A stretch of 64,000 nt of DNA from the IMG/VR virus record IMGVR_UViG_3300032322_001295, positions 23,878-87,877 of that record, one strand, 5' to 3'. The stretch is from a virus. The position numbers were made by a program, and so were the translations under genes. Shown one piece after another: positions 5,454 to 25,170 of this stretch. Within the stretch, counting starts at the first letter, position 1. Each line of letters opens with the position of its first letter. The notes beneath the pieces were generated by a model. That model did no database searches, was not told the origin of the DNA, and worked only from the letters and a program-made list of their open reading frames with translations.

Positions 5454-6055
5454 AATGATAATGCTTTTTCCTCTGTTGACTCTTTTAATCTTTCAACAGC
5501 GTTAATGTAAAGATAATGAGGAGAATTGACAAATTCACCAGTTTTCATGTTCAAATAACAGATATGCTCATCAAGTGTATCAAAAGTAGCCTCATCATGA
5601 ACCAACTCTACGTATGGTTTGGTCCTGATATGATTGTCGCTGATAATCTCACCGGAAAAGCATTTGTTAAGTACATACCGATTAAAATTTCTGCTATCTT
5701 TTTTGCTGTACGCAAACACGTTTACTCCATCAGTAACACTGGCAAACTTAGATGCCATGTCCTGCACGTTAGTAATTGGTGCGCTCATTACAATACTGCC
5801 ACCTCTAACAACTGCTATGTAAACAGGAGTTGCTATTGATGTGTGATGTACATAATGAAGATACCAATCCCTGGGATCTGTATGCTGCGTAATGTAGTTC
5901 TCGAAATCCCTGATATTCTTTTCGAATAGTTGATTGAGAAACAAGTTTTGCTGAAATACTGACAAGCCGTCAAAAGAAACAGCTGGGCCGCCGTATACAA
6001 CGACAGCCACAGCAATATTTCTGTTTTGAAACTTGTTAAAAGGAAATGTTTCCAT
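5429..6055 (-). CDS. Unknown protein between ParB and RadC
   Basis: A 208-residue soluble protein with several beta-type stretches (RNIAVAVVVYGG, YIAVVRGGSIVMS) and a helical C-terminus. No family is recognised with confidence. Its stop codon region shares a base with the ParB-family gene's end and it overlaps RadC by 25 bases, so the three are cotranslated. A ParB, middle protein and JAB order is reminiscent of PRTRC cassettes on plasmids, where the middle protein is E2-like; I cannot see an E2 catalytic Cys motif here. Confidence 0.6.
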   Translation of the reverse strand: METFPFNKFQNRNIAVAVVVYGGPAVSFDGLSVFQQNLFLNQLFEKNIRDFENYITQHTDPRDWYLHYVHHTSIATPVYIAVVRGGSIVMSAPITNVQDMASKFASVTDGVNVFAYSKKDSRNFNRYVLNKCFSGEIISDNHIRTKPYVELVHDEATFDTLDEHICYLNMKTGEFVNSPHYLYINAVERLKESTEEKALSFWKISQEL

Positions 6056-8094
6056 TAGCTAATAACTTGGTATTTATTCTTATCGTTTTTGTAAGCAAAT
6101 GCTGTTTTGAAGTTAAAGCATTCTTTCACTTTCGTAAAGAACGAAACAAACATTGCTTTTCTTCTCTGCTCTGTATCACTAGACTTTATGATGCCTTTAA
6201 TATCAAATGTCTGTAGCGTAGCATTTGCATTAACAAAGTTATACTCATGCATTAAACTAGCAAGTTCTCTCATTTTGGCATTTAAATCAGTTCCATTTAA
6301 AGTTTCCTCTTTAGTTGCAGCATTAAACATTTCAGTGCCTTTTTCCTGACAAAGTTCTATCATTTTAAGACCAGCAATCATACTATCTGTATCAGCATCA
6401 TCATCAATAGTGCTTAGTATTTGATTTACTAGATTCTTAACACGCATTCTCATGATGAACTCACTGCCTTTATATGGAATACCAATGTTCTTGCAAATGT
6501 AAGTAAGCAATGCTTCGTCGGCTTCATCAATAGAATTATAGATACTTTTGCCTGTTTCGTATACATTGATATAGCACATATCTACAACAAACTTGCGTCT
6601 TGCTTTAGCATCATCGTCAATCTCTTCAGATCTTTCTGTTGCTTTCTCAGTCATATCTGCACGCTTAAGTTCAATAGAACTGTATTCATTCTCGTATTCT
6701 TTCTCCAAATCAATGTTATTGTCTTTAAAGAACATAGTAAGAACATTAGGAGTATAGGATGCCATTGTCATCAGATTAGCTTGTAGAAACACAGTCATCG
6801 CATAAGATGCACCAGCTTTTTCAACAAGGTCTGCGCCATTGCTAATGCTGTCACCAAGTAAATGCTCAATGCAATTACTTAAAGCATTGTTGATGTGCAT
6901 ACCTTTAAAGAAAGCAAGTACAGCATAGTCTAAAGTTGCTCCATCTTGATTAAGTTGCTTCATCAATCTAAACACAACATCTTTCCTTGCTTGCTCTTTC
7001 AAGCTTGTAATCTTACGATTAACACGCTCAATAGCAGCATCTTGCTTTTTCTCAACATAACTTTCTTCTGCTTTGACACTTTCAATCAAAGATGGCTTGA
7101 CAAAGAACTTAATATTGCCATCATAATCCCAGCAAGCAACTTCTTCAGGATGTGTACCCATAGCGCATGATATATATCCCGTTATGTCATATCTGTCAAC
7201 AACTTTGAGTTTGTTTTCATCGATAAACTTTTCCCAATATGCCCTTGATCTAGCTTTTGTTGCATAAATATCAGATGTTCTAGGTCTATCAAACATATTA
7301 CCTACGTTGATGTACCATTTCTCTTCTTTGATATTTGGATGCACATTGCCATCTAAATCAACAAAGCTTTCTTCTGGAACACTTTCAGATATTTCCGGCA
7401 TGCAATAGTTAGACAATCTTACTATTTCTCTATCATCAAGAGCTTCACCTTCTGTATGCAAATCACGATCATAAATCTCGTCAACAATCAATTTTTGTAC
7501 AGCATCAGGCATATCGCACAATGCAGTAGCGCCAGACTCGTCGATAACACCTTCAAAGCAAAGCTTTATAGCTTCTTTGTTTAATGCCGCTATCTTGCGA
7601 AGTGATGTTGCTCTATTTACAGAAATACCAAGCTGACTAGCAATCTTTGGCAATGTCACACCTTTAACAGCAACAGCCTGTCTGATTGCATGGGCCAATG
7701 TAATAAAATGCTGCTCACTGCGAAGTACATTTTCAGTCAATGAATCGACAATGTTAATGCCATCCATAATATAAACTGGGATTTCTGCAGTAGCATCAAT
7801 CTCTTTACACAAATCTTCATAACGAGTAACAAAAGCCATTGCTCGGGTGTAGCCGGCACGAACAACATACTTGCCTTTTACTTGCTCGCAGATGATTGGC
7901 TGCAGCAATAAAGAACCAGTCTTTTTGTAGGTCTCAACCATTGAAACATACATTTTATCAATAGCATCACCATACGGAGTAGCATCATTTACATCATAAT
8001 CTATGCCAGCAAATCTAGGATTAGGTATAGAAAAGTCAAGCAAATCTGGAGTTACTTTCAACATTTCGTTTTTAATTTTAATATTAGAAGCCAT
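6055..8094 (-). CDS. ParB-family protein with long C-terminal region
   Basis: The N-terminal 110 residues form a ParB/Srx nuclease-like domain: LLQPIICE (63-70), then AGYTRAMAF (80-88) in place of the canonical GERRxR phosphate-binding box. ENVLRSEQHF (121-130) matches the ENLQR-type motif. A KorB-like helix-turn-helix follows at about 148-170 (LPKIASQLGISVNRATSLRK). The remaining 500 residues are helical and of unknown role. At 679 residues it is about twice the length of chromosomal ParB. It may partition or organise phage DNA, or regulate transcription. No ParA gene is visible. A terminator hairpin lies just upstream of its start. Confidence 0.8.
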   Translation of the reverse strand: MASNIKIKNEMLKVTPDLLDFSIPNPRFAGIDYDVNDATPYGDAIDKMYVSMVETYKKTGSLLLQPIICEQVKGKYVVRAGYTRAMAFVTRYEDLCKEIDATAEIPVYIMDGINIVDSLTENVLRSEQHFITLAHAIRQAVAVKGVTLPKIASQLGISVNRATSLRKIAALNKEAIKLCFEGVIDESGATALCDMPDAVQKLIVDEIYDRDLHTEGEALDDREIVRLSNYCMPEISESVPEESFVDLDGNVHPNIKEEKWYINVGNMFDRPRTSDIYATKARSRAYWEKFIDENKLKVVDRYDITGYISCAMGTHPEEVACWDYDGNIKFFVKPSLIESVKAEESYVEKKQDAAIERVNRKITSLKEQARKDVVFRLMKQLNQDGATLDYAVLAFFKGMHINNALSNCIEHLLGDSISNGADLVEKAGASYAMTVFLQANLMTMASYTPNVLTMFFKDNNIDLEKEYENEYSSIELKRADMTEKATERSEEIDDDAKARRKFVVDMCYINVYETGKSIYNSIDEADEALLTYICKNIGIPYKGSEFIMRMRVKNLVNQILSTIDDDADTDSMIAGLKMIELCQEKGTEMFNAATKEETLNGTDLNAKMRELASLMHEYNFVNANATLQTFDIKGIIKSSDTEQRRKAMFVSFFTKVKECFNFKTAFAYKNDKNKYQVIS

Positions 8095-8105
8095 ACAAAT
8101 GGTTT

Positions 8106-8140
8106 AAAAAGTAGCCTGCACACAGTTTCCTTGTGCAGGC
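8106..8140 (-). terminator. Rho-independent terminator after ssb
   Basis: A perfect 9-bp stem (GCCTGCACA at 8114-8122 with TGTGCAGGC at 8132-8140) with a 9-nt loop is followed on the minus strand by TACTTTTTAAA. It ends the unit carrying ssb and separates it from the ParB gene. Confidence 0.75.
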
Positions 8141-8155
8141 ATTGTGAAATAATAT

Positions 8156-13793: not shown

Positions 13794-14269
13794 GATATTC
13801 TTAAACTTATGTTTTCAACAATTGATGCACCAGGTATATCTTGACCATCAAGAATGGCATTCCTAATATCAGTTTTACTTGGCTCACGTTTAAACCGGCA
13901 ATAAATGTCAGGTATGAGTGAATCATCACTGATTTCTACTGCTTTACTTTTAGTAGTTGCAATCTTTACAAGAGCTGTTTTAACAGGACCAAACGCAATA
14001 ACATTCTGCAACATACGATCTTTAAGCACTTCAACTGATTTATCATATTGCTGTGCCTTTTTAAGTAATCTATGAGCTTCTTCGCGCAATAGTTCTGACT
14101 GTGCTTTGAGACTTTTTACAACGAACGAATAGTCTTGTAATTTTTTGTCTCTTTCTTGTTCAGCTATTTCAAGCTGTTCTAGTAAAAAATCTGGAATTTC
14201 TCCACCGTTGTCCTCTATGGATGTTTGGATAAGAAATAACTCCTGACTGATTTCAAATAGATTTGCCAT
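13790..14269 (-). CDS. Siphovirus Gp157-like protein
   Basis: Starts at 14269 (MANLFEISQELFLIQ) in a TAATG overlap with the upstream stop; an upstream in-frame ATG would bury 29 residues in that gene. The 159-residue protein has the Gp157 (PF05565) layout: a helical N-terminus, a long central coiled coil (residues 30-95), then a strand-rich end (KTALVKIATTKSKAVEIS, IPDIYCRFKREPSKTDIRNA). Gp157 proteins occur in recombination and replication modules of many phages; their precise function is not known. Confidence 0.75.
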   Translation of the reverse strand: MANLFEISQELFLIQTSIEDNGGEIPDFLLEQLEIAEQERDKKLQDYSFVVKSLKAQSELLREEAHRLLKKAQQYDKSVEVLKDRMLQNVIAFGPVKTALVKIATTKSKAVEISDDSLIPDIYCRFKREPSKTDIRNAILDGQDIPGASIVENISLRIS

Positions 14270-14610
14270 TAAAATACGTTGTTTTCGATAATTACTGAAT
14301 TGATTAGTTCTGGGTTCAATGTAAACATATGACCATCTGATGTTAATACATACCAATCATCTTTAAAGCCTTGAACTATTTTACCTTGATTGCCATTGTA
14401 AGTAACTATGTCACCATCACGATATCTGTATGGCACACCATAAACAATAGCATCTTGCTTTAGCCAAACATTTTTGTCATTTTCGCTTGAATATAACCAG
14501 AGATCACCATCGGTATCCATTTTAAGGCTTTTGATATCAAAAGCTAAGAATACTTGATCACCTTCTCTGTAGTTTCTTTCGGACAACTCCGATGCTTTAA
14601 ACTTTTCCAT
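14269..14610 (-). CDS. Unknown protein with SH3-like C-terminus
   Basis: The 113-residue protein ends in a run of short strands (YRDGDIVTYNGNQGKIVQGF, DDWYVLTSDGHMFTLNPELI) that looks like a KOW or SH3-like barrel. No catalytic motif is seen. It is the first gene of the unit that runs leftward from just behind the terminator at 14625-14662 to the one at 8106-8140. Confidence 0.5.
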   Translation of the reverse strand: MEKFKASELSERNYREGDQVFLAFDIKSLKMDTDGDLWLYSSENDKNVWLKQDAIVYGVPYRYRDGDIVTYNGNQGKIVQGFKDDWYVLTSDGHMFTLNPELINSVIIENNVF

Positions 14611-14624
14611 AATTGAATGTTGTT

Positions 14625-14662
14625 AATAAAAATGCCTGCAAACTCGTTAGATCTACAGGCAT
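14625..14662 (-). terminator. Rho-independent terminator
   Basis: A 7-bp stem (ATGCCTG at 14632-14638 with CAGGCAT at 14656-14662) is followed on the minus strand by TTTTTATT. It ends the unit carrying the secreted protein at 14678-15166. Confidence 0.7.
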
Positions 14663-14677
14663 AGGTTATAAAATAAT

Positions 14678-15166: not shown

Positions 15167-15359
15167 TGTTACGGTTTTTAATATGTTCTTCAATAAGTTC
15201 CTTGATAGATCCATAAGCAAGCTCCCACTCATGCGTGGGAGATGCGCCTTCATCTATCTCATCTATTGCAAGCGTTACGAAATCTAGTATATCATGTTTT
15301 AGTGCAGGATATTCAGATATCATTTGCATTGCATAGTCGTTTACAATTTTTCTGTTCAT
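15150..15359 (-). CDS. Unknown small acidic protein, 69 residues
   Basis: The ATG at 15359 overlaps the upstream gene's stop as ATGA and is preferred to an earlier Met. The protein is helical and acidic (KHDILDFVTLAIDEIDEGA). No family is recognised. Its last 17 bases overlap the signal peptide of the next gene. Confidence 0.5.
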   Translation of the reverse strand: MNRKIVNDYAMQMISEYPALKHDILDFVTLAIDEIDEGASPTHEWELAYGSIKELIEEHIKNRNNESID

Positions 15360-15955
15360 TTGTACCCAATCATTGCGCATAGAGGTCCCAAAATATCTGC
15401 TACAAGCATAACTGCTTTAGCTTTGGGTCTAGCGTTGTCATTTAATCCATTTAACCCTTTGTTTAATGAAGGATACGATGGCATAATGGTATTCCATTTT
15501 CCTAATATGCAACTACTACTAATAGCATTGCATTCTTCCTGAATGTTATCAGTTTTCAATGTACCTGTTCTGTCTACAACATTATATGCTTTGGTCATAG
15601 CAGCACTAAGCTCTTTACCATTACGCTTATAACTATGCGCTATAGTCATAACAGCGCTCATATTCTTTTTACTTATAGGTTCATATCTCTTACGCGCTAG
15701 CTCTACAAACAATGCAGAGATGTAATGAGATAAATAGCTGAATCCAAACTGCTTTCCCTGGTACTCATAGTCCCATTTGTAATGAAAGAAGTTTCTATGC
15801 TTTGCTTGCAAGCCGGCAAACTTACGGACAATAGCAGAGCATGCATCAACAATAACTTGCTTTTCTTCTTTAGTAGCCAGCTCACCTTCAAAGATTTCTT
15901 TAGCCTCAATAAGTTGAGCTGAAAACTTATCGATTGTTTCTTGAATATCGTTCAC
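15356..15955 (-). CDS. Unknown protein, 199 residues
   Basis: The first 40 residues are an acidic helix (MNDIQETIDKFSAQLIEAKE); the middle has an aromatic basic section (KHRNFFHYKWDYEYQGKQF); the C-terminus is hydrophobic (KAVMLVADILGPLCAMIGYK) and might touch a membrane. No family is recognised. It heads the unit that begins just behind the terminator at 15977-16005. Confidence 0.55.
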   Translation of the reverse strand: MNDIQETIDKFSAQLIEAKEIFEGELATKEEKQVIVDACSAIVRKFAGLQAKHRNFFHYKWDYEYQGKQFGFSYLSHYISALFVELARKRYEPISKKNMSAVMTIAHSYKRNGKELSAAMTKAYNVVDRTGTLKTDNIQEECNAISSSCILGKWNTIMPSYPSLNKGLNGLNDNARPKAKAVMLVADILGPLCAMIGYK

Positions 15956-15976
15956 GATTTATAATTTTAATAATAA

Positions 15977-16005
15977 AATAAAAAGGGCAGCTATTACAGC
16001 TGCCC
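15977..16005 (-). terminator. Rho-independent terminator
   Basis: A perfect 8-bp GC-rich stem (GGGCAGCT at 15985-15992 with AGCTGCCC at 15998-16005) and a 5-nt loop are followed on the minus strand by TTTTTATTTTATTATT. This is the strongest terminator in the window and closes the unit starting near 19.2 kb. Confidence 0.85.
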
Positions 16006-16036
16006 CAACACACTATAAACACAAATAAACACTAGT

Positions 16037-18330: not shown

Positions 18331-18630
18331 TTAGAGATAAACTGTTTCACGTTGTACATTTTTAACAAACGCTTGAAAAACTCTTATTGACTCATCAATA
18401 CCAGGAAGAGTGTTAAACATATAAATATCTTCTACGTTGTTGTTTTTATCTACGTAGATTTTTACTCCGACTTGACCAAATCCGTAGATTCGGTAACTTA
18501 TTATGTAATGCCCCTCATCTTCTTTATACTTCCCATCTTCCCATAGATTAAGTTGGTACTGTGTACCATCGTTAGGAAATAACTCTTCCATTTTATTTAA
18601 TACCTCAGTTCTTAATTCTTGATAGTTCAT
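18331..18630 (-). CDS. Unknown protein, 99 residues, with repeated leader
   Basis: Soluble protein with strand-type patterns (HYIISYRIYGFGQVGVKIYV) and a helical N-terminus (LRTEVLNKMEELF). No family is recognised. Its start follows directly behind one copy of the 50-nt leader element (18637-18686), which fixes the start at 18630. Confidence 0.55.
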   Translation of the reverse strand: MNYQELRTEVLNKMEELFPNDGTQYQLNLWEDGKYKEDEGHYIISYRIYGFGQVGVKIYVDKNNNVEDIYMFNTLPGIDESIRVFQAFVKNVQRETVYL

Positions 18631-18636
18631 AACTAT

Positions 18637-18686
18637 TATACTCTTGTCATCCTCACATAGGCTCGAGTTCTACCTATACGCTTGTT
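18637..18686 (-). promoter_or_regulatory. 50-nt leader element, copy A
   Basis: Lies six bases upstream of a start codon and is the same length as copy B (18916-18965). The plus-strand left part TATACTCTTGTCATCCT and the right end CTTGTT are identical in both. Between them a 5-bp stem ATAGG/CCTAT encloses the loop CTCGAGTTCTA. Compared with copy B, three stem pairs differ in both arms and still pair. It may be a leader RNA controlling translation or a hairpin promoter for a phage RNA polymerase. Confidence 0.7.
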
Positions 18687-18697
18687 AGTTATTTGTT

Positions 18698-18910
18698 TTA
18701 TATTGTTATTTCTGCTGGGTTCATGCAAAGCATGACATCCCACTCTTGACCGTAGTCAGAAAAAACTAAACTGTATGGTTCGCGTTCGTAATACTGAACA
18801 CCATTCCAAGAAAAAAGCATACAGCCTTCTTCGTCCCTGATTTGCAATCCATTATCATCAACACATGGAAGCAAACATTTAAGAGGGACATATTGTCCTG
18901 TCTGTGTCAT
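18698..18910 (-). CDS. Unknown small protein, 70 residues
   Basis: Short protein with an aromatic, strand-rich body (GCMLFSWNGVQYYEREPYSL) and several Cys. The layout suggests a small beta barrel; no family is recognised. The start at 18910 is fixed by leader copy B, which begins 5 bases upstream. It ends 11 bases before leader copy A. Confidence 0.5.
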   Translation of the reverse strand: MTQTGQYVPLKCLLPCVDDNGLQIRDEEGCMLFSWNGVQYYEREPYSLVFSDYGQEWDVMLCMNPAEITI

Positions 18911-18915
18911 ACTTA

Positions 18916-18965
18916 TATACTCTTGTCATCCTTACACGTGCTCGAGCTCTACACGCATACTTGTT
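18916..18965 (-). promoter_or_regulatory. 50-nt leader element, copy B
   Basis: Same length and end sequences as copy A. The stem is CGTG/CACG around the loop CTCGAGCTCTA. The stem sequence differs from copy A but is still complementary, which is covariation evidence that the structure is selected. It sits directly upstream of the start at 18910. Confidence 0.7.
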
Positions 18966-18994
18966 TTTTTAAATGATTTGTTGTTTCTTACTGG

Positions 18995-19034
18995 ATAGTA
19001 CATACTACCCTCGCACCTGTAAACTCAGGTTGTT
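18995..19034 (-). other. Two hairpins in an intergenic gap
   Basis: The gap between the gene ending at 19039 and leader copy B holds GGATAGTACATACTACCC and ACCTGTAAACTCAGGT, both able to form short stems. There is no following T-run on the minus strand, so a terminator is doubtful; an RNA processing or folding role is possible. Confidence 0.3.
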
Positions 19035-19038
19035 ATTC

Positions 19039-19233
19039 TTAATCTTCTAGTTTACGCACGTTCACATACGTTACTACAGTATCACCACTATTATCTGTAT
19101 CTAGAAGTTGATTCCAGATATAATCTGCAACTTTTTCCGCGTTCTCTTCAAGTACATATACACTGTGAAGATTGTCATTTAAATAAATACCATAAGAAAA
19201 TGGTGTTAAATAATCAAAAGATAACTTTTCCAT
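19039..19233 (-). CDS. Unknown small protein, 64 residues
   Basis: The start at 19233 (MEKLSFDYLTPFSYG) is chosen over an ATG at 19248 because the diverged leader copy C begins just upstream of it, in the same spacing as copies A and B. The protein is acidic and soluble, with a YVLEENAEKVADYIW helix. No family is recognised. It is the first gene of the leftward unit that ends at the terminator near 16.0 kb. Confidence 0.5.
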   Translation of the reverse strand: MEKLSFDYLTPFSYGIYLNDNLHSVYVLEENAEKVADYIWNQLLDTDNSGDTVVTYVNVRKLED

Positions 19234-19234
19234 A

Positions 19235-19281
19235 ATACTAGTGACCATTCTTTATAGGGCATTTGAGTCATTTCCCTTGTT
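19235..19281 (-). promoter_or_regulatory. Diverged leader element, copy C
   Basis: Shares the plan of copies A and B: ATACT near the start codon, a stem AGGG/CCCT (19256-19259 with 19274-19277), a loop containing TTGAGTC, and the same CTTGTT end. Similarity is weaker and the loop is 14 nt instead of 11, so this is a candidate relative only. Confidence 0.4.
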
Positions 19282-19437
19282 GTGAAAAATATATAAAGTG
19301 TAGATATAATCACCTATAATAAAACCCACGCAATCACTTACAATATTAGTATGTATAACACTAATAGAGTTGTGCGATATGATGTAGAGTAGAGTAATGC
19401 GCAGCAGATGGTAGCCACTCACACCTTTTCTCTATCA

Positions 19438-19453
19438 TGTTCCACGTGGAACA
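19438..19453. promoter_or_regulatory. parS: parS-like palindrome
   Basis: TGTTCCACGTGGAACA is a perfect 16-bp palindrome and fits the bacterial chromosomal parS consensus (TGTTnCACGTGnAACA), the site where Spo0J/ParB loads as a CTP-dependent clamp. Either the phage's own ParB-family protein or the host ParB could bind it. Only one copy is seen in the window. Confidence 0.75.
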
Positions 19454-19539
19454 ATAGCACTAACAGTCTGACAGTCAACGCTATATGTAAATCATTATCT
19501 AATATTTTGTTATCTTACTAACAGTAGTATGAACCTTTT

Positions 19540-19574
19540 AAAAAAACCCCACGCCCGAAGGCGCAGGGATTTTT
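19540..19574 (-). terminator. Rho-independent terminator, probably bidirectional
   Basis: The stem CGCC-CGAA-GGCG with an outer CCC/GGG (19547-19568) has seven A's on its left, giving a T7 tail on the minus strand, and ATTTTTC on its right. It lies immediately after the stop of the leftward gene at 19576. Confidence 0.8.
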
Positions 19575-19575
19575 C

Positions 19576-19938
19576 TTACTTCTTCTTCTTAGTAGTAGTT
19601 TTGACCACTACTTCTTTCTTTTCTTCTTCTTCTTCAGGAAGTCTAGTCTCGACGACAGCTTTGTTGTTGATGGTGACGAATAACTCCTCACCAGTTTCAA
19701 ATACAAACTCTTGTTCGTCTAGGAAATCTTCTAGGATTCCATCTTTACGTAATTGGTCTATCAACTGATAGGCACCAATGGTACCCTTATCAGTCAAGAT
19801 ACACTGCGAAGCTTTCTGCCCCCAAGTGCCTTTTCCCAATAACTTTACAAGATGTTCCCCTTCTTTCATGAATAGAGGAGAGTTCTTTTCTCCTTTTTCA
19901 ATGATTTCTGTAACCTTTCCTAATGATACCTTGCTCAT
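19576..19938 (-). CDS. Unknown protein with charged tail, 120 residues
   Basis: The first 75 residues look like a small folded domain (GEHLVKLLGKGTWGQKASQC, IGAYQLIDQLRKDGILEDFL) that may be a winged-helix type. The end is an EEEEEKKE run followed by KTTTKKKK, coded by a low-complexity GAA/AAG stretch. Such tails are seen on nucleic-acid-binding proteins. It is transcribed toward the control region and stopped by the terminator at 19540-19574. A regulator of the divide is plausible but not shown. Confidence 0.6.
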   Translation of the reverse strand: MSKVSLGKVTEIIEKGEKNSPLFMKEGEHLVKLLGKGTWGQKASQCILTDKGTIGAYQLIDQLRKDGILEDFLDEQEFVFETGEELFVTINNKAVVETRLPEEEEEKKEVVVKTTTKKKK

Positions 19939-23850: not shown

Positions 23851-25170
23851 ATGGCGTATAAATTTAATCCCGTAACTGGCAAACTTGATTATTACGGTGC
23901 AGGAAATCTTTCAACTGTATTAGGAAATGGTAATACATCGGGTCCTAACGATATAGATTTTGATTCTGGTAGAGGTGTGTTTTTTGATAATGCTTCTAGA
24001 ATAAAAGAAGGAACTACTGATGCTGGAAATGGTGGAGGTAAAGGAATAGCTTTATTTTGCTCTATTGATTACGAGTTAAAATGGGAAGCAGGTAGATTGT
24101 ATGTAATTCAACAAGGTGGTTTTATTATTAGACACTCTTTGTATAATTTTAATATTATACCGACTGCTGCCGATGATTCTACAAAAGGCTATCAGATTGG
24201 ATCCTTGTGGACTTTAGACGATGGTTCTGTTTATTATTGCGCAGACAATACAATGGGGGCAGCGATTTGGGCATTGCAGCAAAATGCAGTTTCGACTTTG
24301 GACCAAGTTTTAGGATCTGGCAATACAGCTAATAATAAATCAATAATTGATATCGATTTTTTGGATTTTGCAACATCATTGGGACATACAGTTGCAGAAA
24401 GTGAGCTTACTTGGAATGATACTGACGGAACCTTGGATTTAGGTCTCAAAGGTGGTTTAATCAATAAGGTTGGTCAGCAATTAGTAGTTCGTGCAAGAAA
24501 TACAAGCGGTTCTTTAATTAGTAAGGGCAGCGTTGTAAAGGTGGTTGGAGTAGCAGGAGGATTTATAGGTATAAACTTGGCACAAGCAGACAATGACACA
24601 AATAGCGCAACAGCATTTGGTATTGTTTCCGAAGACATCGCAAATAATTCTAATGGGTTTGTCACAATCAACGGGATTGTTCACGGAGTTAATACTAATG
24701 CTTATACAGAAGGAGATATTTTGTATCTTAGTCCAACTACACCAGGAGAAATAACAAATGTTAAACCAGTCTCTCCGTCTCACATTGTTATTGTCGGATA
24801 TGTAGCAAAGAAAAGCGCAACAGATGGACATATTTTGCTACATGTTCAGAATGGCTATGAGCTTGATGAGTTGCATAATGTGTTAATAACAACGCCTGAG
24901 AATGGCAATTTTTTAGAGTATAACGGCACACTTTGGGTTAATCGTGGCATTATATATACGGTTGAGTTGATGGATGCATTAACGGTAGATTTTTACGCTC
25001 CATACGATTTAAAAATAAACACAACTACAAATATCAAAAATGCTCCGACAATTACAATTCAAGACGATGGCGCTGCTTATACTTTGACAAATACTATTGC
25101 AGTAGGTAGTAAAATTACGGTAACGGCATCGGTTGCAGGGGTTACAAATCTAAACATAACAAAAGCATAA
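23851..25170 (+). CDS. Phage fibre protein, 439 residues
   Basis: Begins MAYKFNPVTGKLDYYGAG, a start common in fibre proteins of Bacteroidota phages. Long stretches of beta repeats follow (VLGNGNTSGPNDIDFDSG and its relative VLGSGNTANNKSIIDIDF, residues 22-40 and 155-172), then a domain at about 200-330. Composition is Gly/Thr/Asn-rich. It would form part of a head or tail fibre involved in host attachment. Confidence 0.65.
   Translation: MAYKFNPVTGKLDYYGAGNLSTVLGNGNTSGPNDIDFDSGRGVFFDNASRIKEGTTDAGNGGGKGIALFCSIDYELKWEAGRLYVIQQGGFIIRHSLYNFNIIPTAADDSTKGYQIGSLWTLDDGSVYYCADNTMGAAIWALQQNAVSTLDQVLGSGNTANNKSIIDIDFLDFATSLGHTVAESELTWNDTDGTLDLGLKGGLINKVGQQLVVRARNTSGSLISKGSVVKVVGVAGGFIGINLAQADNDTNSATAFGIVSEDIANNSNGFVTINGIVHGVNTNAYTEGDILYLSPTTPGEITNVKPVSPSHIVIVGYVAKKSATDGHILLHVQNGYELDELHNVLITTPENGNFLEYNGTLWVNRGIIYTVELMDALTVDFYAPYDLKINTTTNIKNAPTITIQDDGAAYTLTNTIAVGSKITVTASVAGVTNLNITKA

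Follow-up and report, generated by a model that had tools for sequence, protein, structure and literature searches.

Comparison with described systems

Translational operators of phages that bind a protein include the MS2 coat-protein hairpin and the leader of T4 gene 32. The 50-nt element described here resembles these operators in that a short hairpin lies just before a gene, the loop or flanks are fixed while the stem is freer, and the action would be on the mRNA strand. It differs in that any cognate protein is putative and in preceding several unrelated genes. An autoregulated leader RNA had been named as a parallel in the original prediction, which was made from the sequence alone; a leader of that class or a similar one is still the best explanation, but autoregulation of a single gene does not fit an element that is found before several.

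A second parallel is provided by the PeSL cassettes of T4-type phages, in which a short conserved intergenic stem-loop lies beside swapped small genes, as mentioned in PMC4503421. The genes adjoining the present element are likewise shuffled among relatives. The differences from a PeSL are that the stem covaries and its sequence is not preserved, that the phage belongs to the crAss-like group, and that neither an early promoter nor a stem-loop terminator was found. On the sense strand of the 50-nt elements there was no sigma-70-type and no TTTG/TAnnTTTG-type promoter, the host consensus being uncertain. The hairpin is not followed by a U-tract and was absent from the terminator hits, and a terminator was rejected.

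The promoters of the N4 virion RNA polymerase are also repeated inverted repeats upstream of genes with both fixed and variable stem bases, but their hairpins lie on the DNA template strand (PMC4496689), whereas the present one forms all of its pairs only on the mRNA strand, around a 9-nt loop. Finally, covarying leader hairpins without known function are found among the candidate RNA motifs from comparative genomics (PMC2864571 and PMC8040213). In contrast to those motifs, the element is not in Rfam 15, where no match reached the gathering score of any family, and it has so far been seen in one phage genus only. Searches of open-licence literature on crAss-like leaders, promoters and structured RNAs turned up no description of it.

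The phage record and its relatives

The window is the whole stretch of 64,000 nucleotides that was analyzed and corresponds to positions 23,878 to 87,877 of an 87,877-base virus record (IMGVR_UViG_3300032322_001295; G000). From its protein matches, the phage is assigned to the crAss-like group. The Crassvirus muzzle protein (PF25731) was matched in a family search, the terminase and portal corresponded to phrog_6681 and phrog_6547, respectively, and the terminase was approximately 25 to 29% identical to those of named crAss-like phages among the records shown in the comparison. A tblastn search of the major head protein against 50,697 phage records gave no match, and the lineage is therefore considered distant from sequenced isolates. 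The region containing the element is covered by five records, namely, G000, the related phage G001 (IMGVR_UViG_3300043773_000921; 88,548 bases; its locus is given in L006 coordinates), G003, G012 and the record of L041.

Structure of the leader element

Two elements of 50 nt each were confirmed on the minus strand, at 18637–18686 (copy 1) and 18916–18965 (copy 2), as had been predicted. They scored 78.4 and 82.2 bits, respectively, with the covariance model and are identical in 39 of 50 columns, a similarity far above chance: with copy 1 as the blastn query, copy 2 was retrieved from the window at an E value of 1e-7, and the next best match was at 0.3. The predicted position directly upstream of two small unrelated genes was also borne out, with genes and hairpin on the minus strand. 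The spacing to the ATG of the downstream gene is 6 nt for copy 1 (gene C; 99 aa; 18331–18630) and 5 nt for copy 2 (gene B; 70 aa; 18698–18910). Neither protein belongs to a known family, and searches for close relatives of the two found none.

Each element comprises AACAAG, a 9-bp hairpin and a conserved 17-nt tail. The hairpins, assigned from the RNA fold and a comparison of pairing, were located at 18654–18680 in copy 1 (loop AGAACUCGA) and at 18933–18959 in copy 2 (loop AGAGCUCGA), and the single-stranded tails, assigned from the alignment and the fold, at 18637–18653 (AGGAUGACAAGAGUAUA) and 18916–18932. In mRNA orientation, the minimum-energy fold of both copies was the same, with nine pairs, the 9-nt loop AGARCUCGA and an unpaired 17-nt tail, and it was absent on the opposite strand. 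When copy 2 was folded together with the start codon, the minimum-energy fold was a different one. The stem sequence varies while its pairing is kept, and the loop and flanks are nearly fixed; both ends are conserved as claimed originally, but the loop, to which the same claim extended, carries one change (A/G). A free but paired stem with fixed loop and flanks is what would be seen if a trans-acting factor recognized the loop and the single-stranded parts.

Only three stem pairs had been reported to differ. Six of the nine pairs were found to differ between the two copies, and it holds that all of them still pair. Four pairs were changed on both sides (C-G/U-A, U-A/C-G, A-U/G-C and G-C/U-A) and two on one side (G-U/A-U and A-U/G-U). 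The 18 stem columns hold 10 of the 11 differences (hypergeometric P of 4e-5). When an equal number of changes was placed randomly in the stem, all nine pairs survived in approximately 0.03% of simulations; under a null that kept the columns actually changed and strongly favored transitions, this rose to 3.4%. In an alignment shuffle control the observed value was reached in 23 of 500 shuffles, a weaker result because the alignment has only two distinct rows. The folding energy was not unusual relative to shuffles (z of −0.15 and −0.47 for the two copies), so the case for structure rests on the covariation together with the shared minimum-energy fold. The argument of the original prediction that covariation indicates a selected hairpin is upheld by these pair-preserving changes, and we regard a real and selected hairpin as well supported by comparison of what are only two independent sequences, the third copy described below being identical to copy 2.

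The stem could instead pair by accident or through template-switch mutation in a relic of a duplicated intergenic segment. The presence of just two distinct sequences, the shuffle control, the less stringent null and the ordinary folding energy are compatible with such a relic. It was nevertheless considered improbable, as it does not account for the confinement of nearly all changes to the stem or for a perfect third copy in another phage amid unrelated flanks, and template switching would give Watson-Crick pairs, yet G-U pairs persist.

Two further candidates from the copies were discarded. A leader peptide was rejected as the conserved function since no small reading frame is common to all copies: MRVELEHV occurs only in copies 2 and 3, and MTRV stops in copy 1 only. 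A pseudoknot between loop and tail (RCUC/GAGU) fits both copies but was not taken as evidence, as a run of that length occurred in 25% of shuffles.

Strand of the hairpin and promoter alternatives

In both copies, three of the pairs are G-U or U-G and become mismatches on the opposite strand. The plus strand, which is the template for the downstream genes, retains six of nine pairs in each copy; with RNA parameters its hairpin does not form, and when folded as DNA it gives an inner hairpin of 4 to 5 bp only. The conserved U-G and G-U pairs, which are meaningful in the mRNA strand alone, count in favor of an mRNA leader. Since promoters of the N4 type require a template-strand hairpin (PMC4496689), the geometry observed here fits RNA and not a promoter of that type.

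The N4-type promoter, read by a virion polymerase from single-stranded template DNA, had been proposed by analogy in the original prediction, together with a promoter class of the early block. Neither proposal was supported by the analysis. The two sites in the record both lie in one accessory gene slot rather than before several early genes, and the covariance model detected only these two in 87,877 bases and one in G001; with no further copies, a general class of early promoters is disfavored. The leftward block moreover encodes an ERF recombinase, a RadC domain and a glucosaminidase, and with recombination and lysis genes present its early status is unproven. As for the polymerase, the D-x-D-G-D motif of crAss RNA polymerases was not found in the large proteins of G000, although a divergent polymerase may be present. 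Two large open reading frames (L045:133-12000, at least 3956 aa, and L046:22-7836, at least 2604 aa) gave no polymerase family match and only a subthreshold match to ResIII (helicase-like). The appeal to giant polymerases stands insofar as giant virion RNA polymerases transcribing early genes are reported in crAss-like phages (PMC8375218), and this remains, with the analogy itself, what favors an N4-type promoter, which in our assessment is highly improbable.

Hairpins of at least 8 bp were observed upstream of 10 of 37 leftward genes, an ORF list of our own choosing, compared with 10% of shuffles. The idea that copies 1 and 2 belong to a hairpin class common to the leftward block was rejected, as the hairpins before the genes at 6055–8094, 14269–14610 and 15356–15955 have T-rich tails and look like intrinsic terminators.

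The main rival to an mRNA leader holds that the element serves each inserted gene as a promoter in double-stranded DNA, used by a host or phage polymerase. The tail GGATGACAAGAGTATA(at/ta) would then be the core promoter and the mRNA would be nearly leaderless. This would explain why the strictly conserved tail closes with a TATAAT-like or TATATA-like box immediately ahead of the ATG and why the inserted non-first genes have the element while first genes lack it. However, no sigma-70-type site, and none of the Bacteroidota consensus type, overlaps the element on the sense strand, and within the mismatch limits used the tail precedes no other gene in either genome. The compensatory stem changes with G-U pairs would also go unexplained if the hairpin were not transcribed. 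We consider this promoter possible but unlikely.

Distribution and genomic context

A search of the genome and of related genomes with a covariance model, as advised in the original prediction, returned one site in a relative and only the two known sites in G000, where an unfiltered search of the whole record found nothing else above 12.0 bits. Against 15 related records, the model gave three sites, two in G000 and one in G001, and none in the other 13 at an E value of ≤10. Among those 13 records only G003 and G012 are similar to the region in DNA, the rest being mostly fragments that do not cover it. The element is present in two of the five covering records and absent from three.

The third copy, in G001, was found by a pattern scan of viral contigs and is identical to copy 2 at 50 of 50 positions, compared with 79 to 93% identity in neighboring alignments of the two phages. 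It precedes a third gene (79 aa) at the same spacing, unrelated to genes B and C by blastp. Copy 2 and the G001 copy also have in common an A-rich upstream extension (AACAAAT...AAAA; 18966–18982, minus strand), and the element lies within a 75-nt island (L006 5021-5095 versus 18982-18908) of 90.7% identity with nonhomologous DNA on each side. A looser viral-contig pattern gave 11 stretches, which were the G001 copy and 10 others without the flanks and stem; the best of these 10 reached 12.9 bits (E of 5) in cmsearch and was rejected as a copy. When 84,980 bacterial and archaeal genomes were scanned for the pattern, there was a single match, on a GC-rich proteobacterial contig, which was read as chance. 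No copy was found by blastn in phage records. At this search stringency, both genomes, the viral contigs and the bacterial genomes thus yielded nothing beyond the three copies.

The elements sit in a hypervariable gene slot immediately after a conserved divergent region of approximately 300 nt (19285–19584, minus strand), which is present in all five related records and is likely the main promoter or leader of the leftward operon. In G000 the slot holds one gene without the element (gene A; 69 aa; 19039–19248, minus strand), which is the first gene, and two with it. In G001 it holds open reading frames of 108 and 82 aa without the element and the 79-aa gene with it. In G003 and L041 there is a single 74-aa gene and no element, and in G012 the slot is empty. 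The element was seen only before non-first genes; no slot had it ahead of its leading gene.

Between gene A and copy 2 lies a 49-nt block (18993–19041, minus strand) that is 94% identical to L006:4748-4796 of G001 and follows the first gene or genes of the slot in both phages. The block, with z of −2.3 and −2.8, forms two hairpins (ACCUG-CAGGU and GGRUAGUA-UACUAUCC) and may be a companion element of the leader. A sigma-70-like pair (TTTACA and TACTAT) is found within it in both phages, such matches being at chance level there.

This context raises the question of whether the element is mainly a PeSL-like recombination joint for single-gene swaps that has no control function of its own. In two phages the island is isolated amid nonhomologous DNA, three unrelated genes follow the element, three other phages have an empty slot or a different one, and PeSLs are mentioned as a precedent in PMC4503421. 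A pure tag needs sequence identity, however, and here the stem diverges in a pair-preserving way whereas the flanks do not diverge; the promoter and terminator of the PeSLs are also missing. On this analysis, a joint without any control function was judged distinctly unlikely, but the element could serve as leader and recombination joint at once.

Proposed role as an mRNA leader

From the sequence comparisons, the element is proposed to be a cis-acting mRNA leader that stands before swapped accessory genes and is read by a trans-acting factor, a reading to which we give a probability of roughly 55%. A covarying structure on the mRNA strand was found before the start codon, with two distinct sequences. 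On transcription of the leftward operon, the RNA before genes B and C would fold into the 9-bp hairpin with its conserved loop, which would have the conserved AACAAG on one side and the unpaired tail leading to the start codon on the other. The hairpin ends 22 to 23 nt before the AUG and would therefore lie just upstream of the seat of the ribosome on the mRNA. Its reader could be an RNA-binding protein of the phage or the host, or the ribosome itself. The bound factor would set the translation or the stability of the next gene, probably its translation. The element is either carried along with, or used anew by, unrelated accessory genes in a slot where relatives swap them. Counting against the leader are that a hairpin 22 nt upstream would not by itself block ribosome binding, that its stability is no better than that of shuffles, and that three of the five covering phages lack it.

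It is suggested tentatively that the element represents a new crAss-like regulatory RNA family, a plug-in leader by which any gene behind it comes under one trans-acting factor. If so, a phage can exchange accessory genes and keep their control. Bacteroidota make little use of Shine-Dalgarno pairing, and if the host is such a bacterium, the conserved tail may itself recruit ribosomes as a signal of a new type. Such a leader, compact and accompanying genes as they are swapped, would give access to the regulation of small genes that crAss-like phages have newly acquired. It would also flag accessory genes, possibly ones directed against the host, in other genomes, and would serve as a small RNA bait for a phage or host RNA-binding protein.

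Other features of the region

Within the conserved divergent region lies a perfect 16-bp palindrome, TGTTCCACGTGGAACA (19438–19453), which occurs once each in five of six related records, the distant G014 being the exception. It resembles a bacterial chromosomal parS (ParB) site, and a host-ParB hijack or a repressor operator is possible.

In G001, a 224-nt noncoding insert (L006:4797-5020) just before the element has structure above average (z of −2.0). It gave no convincing Rfam match and is possibly a small RNA.

Three hairpins with T-rich tails that resemble intrinsic terminators lie inside the leftward operon at 8095–8155, 14611–14677 and 15956–16036. They end 19 to 28 nt before the start codons of the genes at 6055–8094, 14269–14610 and 15356–15955, respectively. 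Two of the three are nearly unchanged in G001, and they may be attenuators.

A tRNA at 1594–1688, also matched by the Rfam tRNA family, has a long variable arm and a 4-nt anticodon (atca) predicted by ARAGORN. At 3–710 the crAss-like phage encodes a spore photoproduct lyase-like radical SAM protein (PF20903; E of 5e-25).
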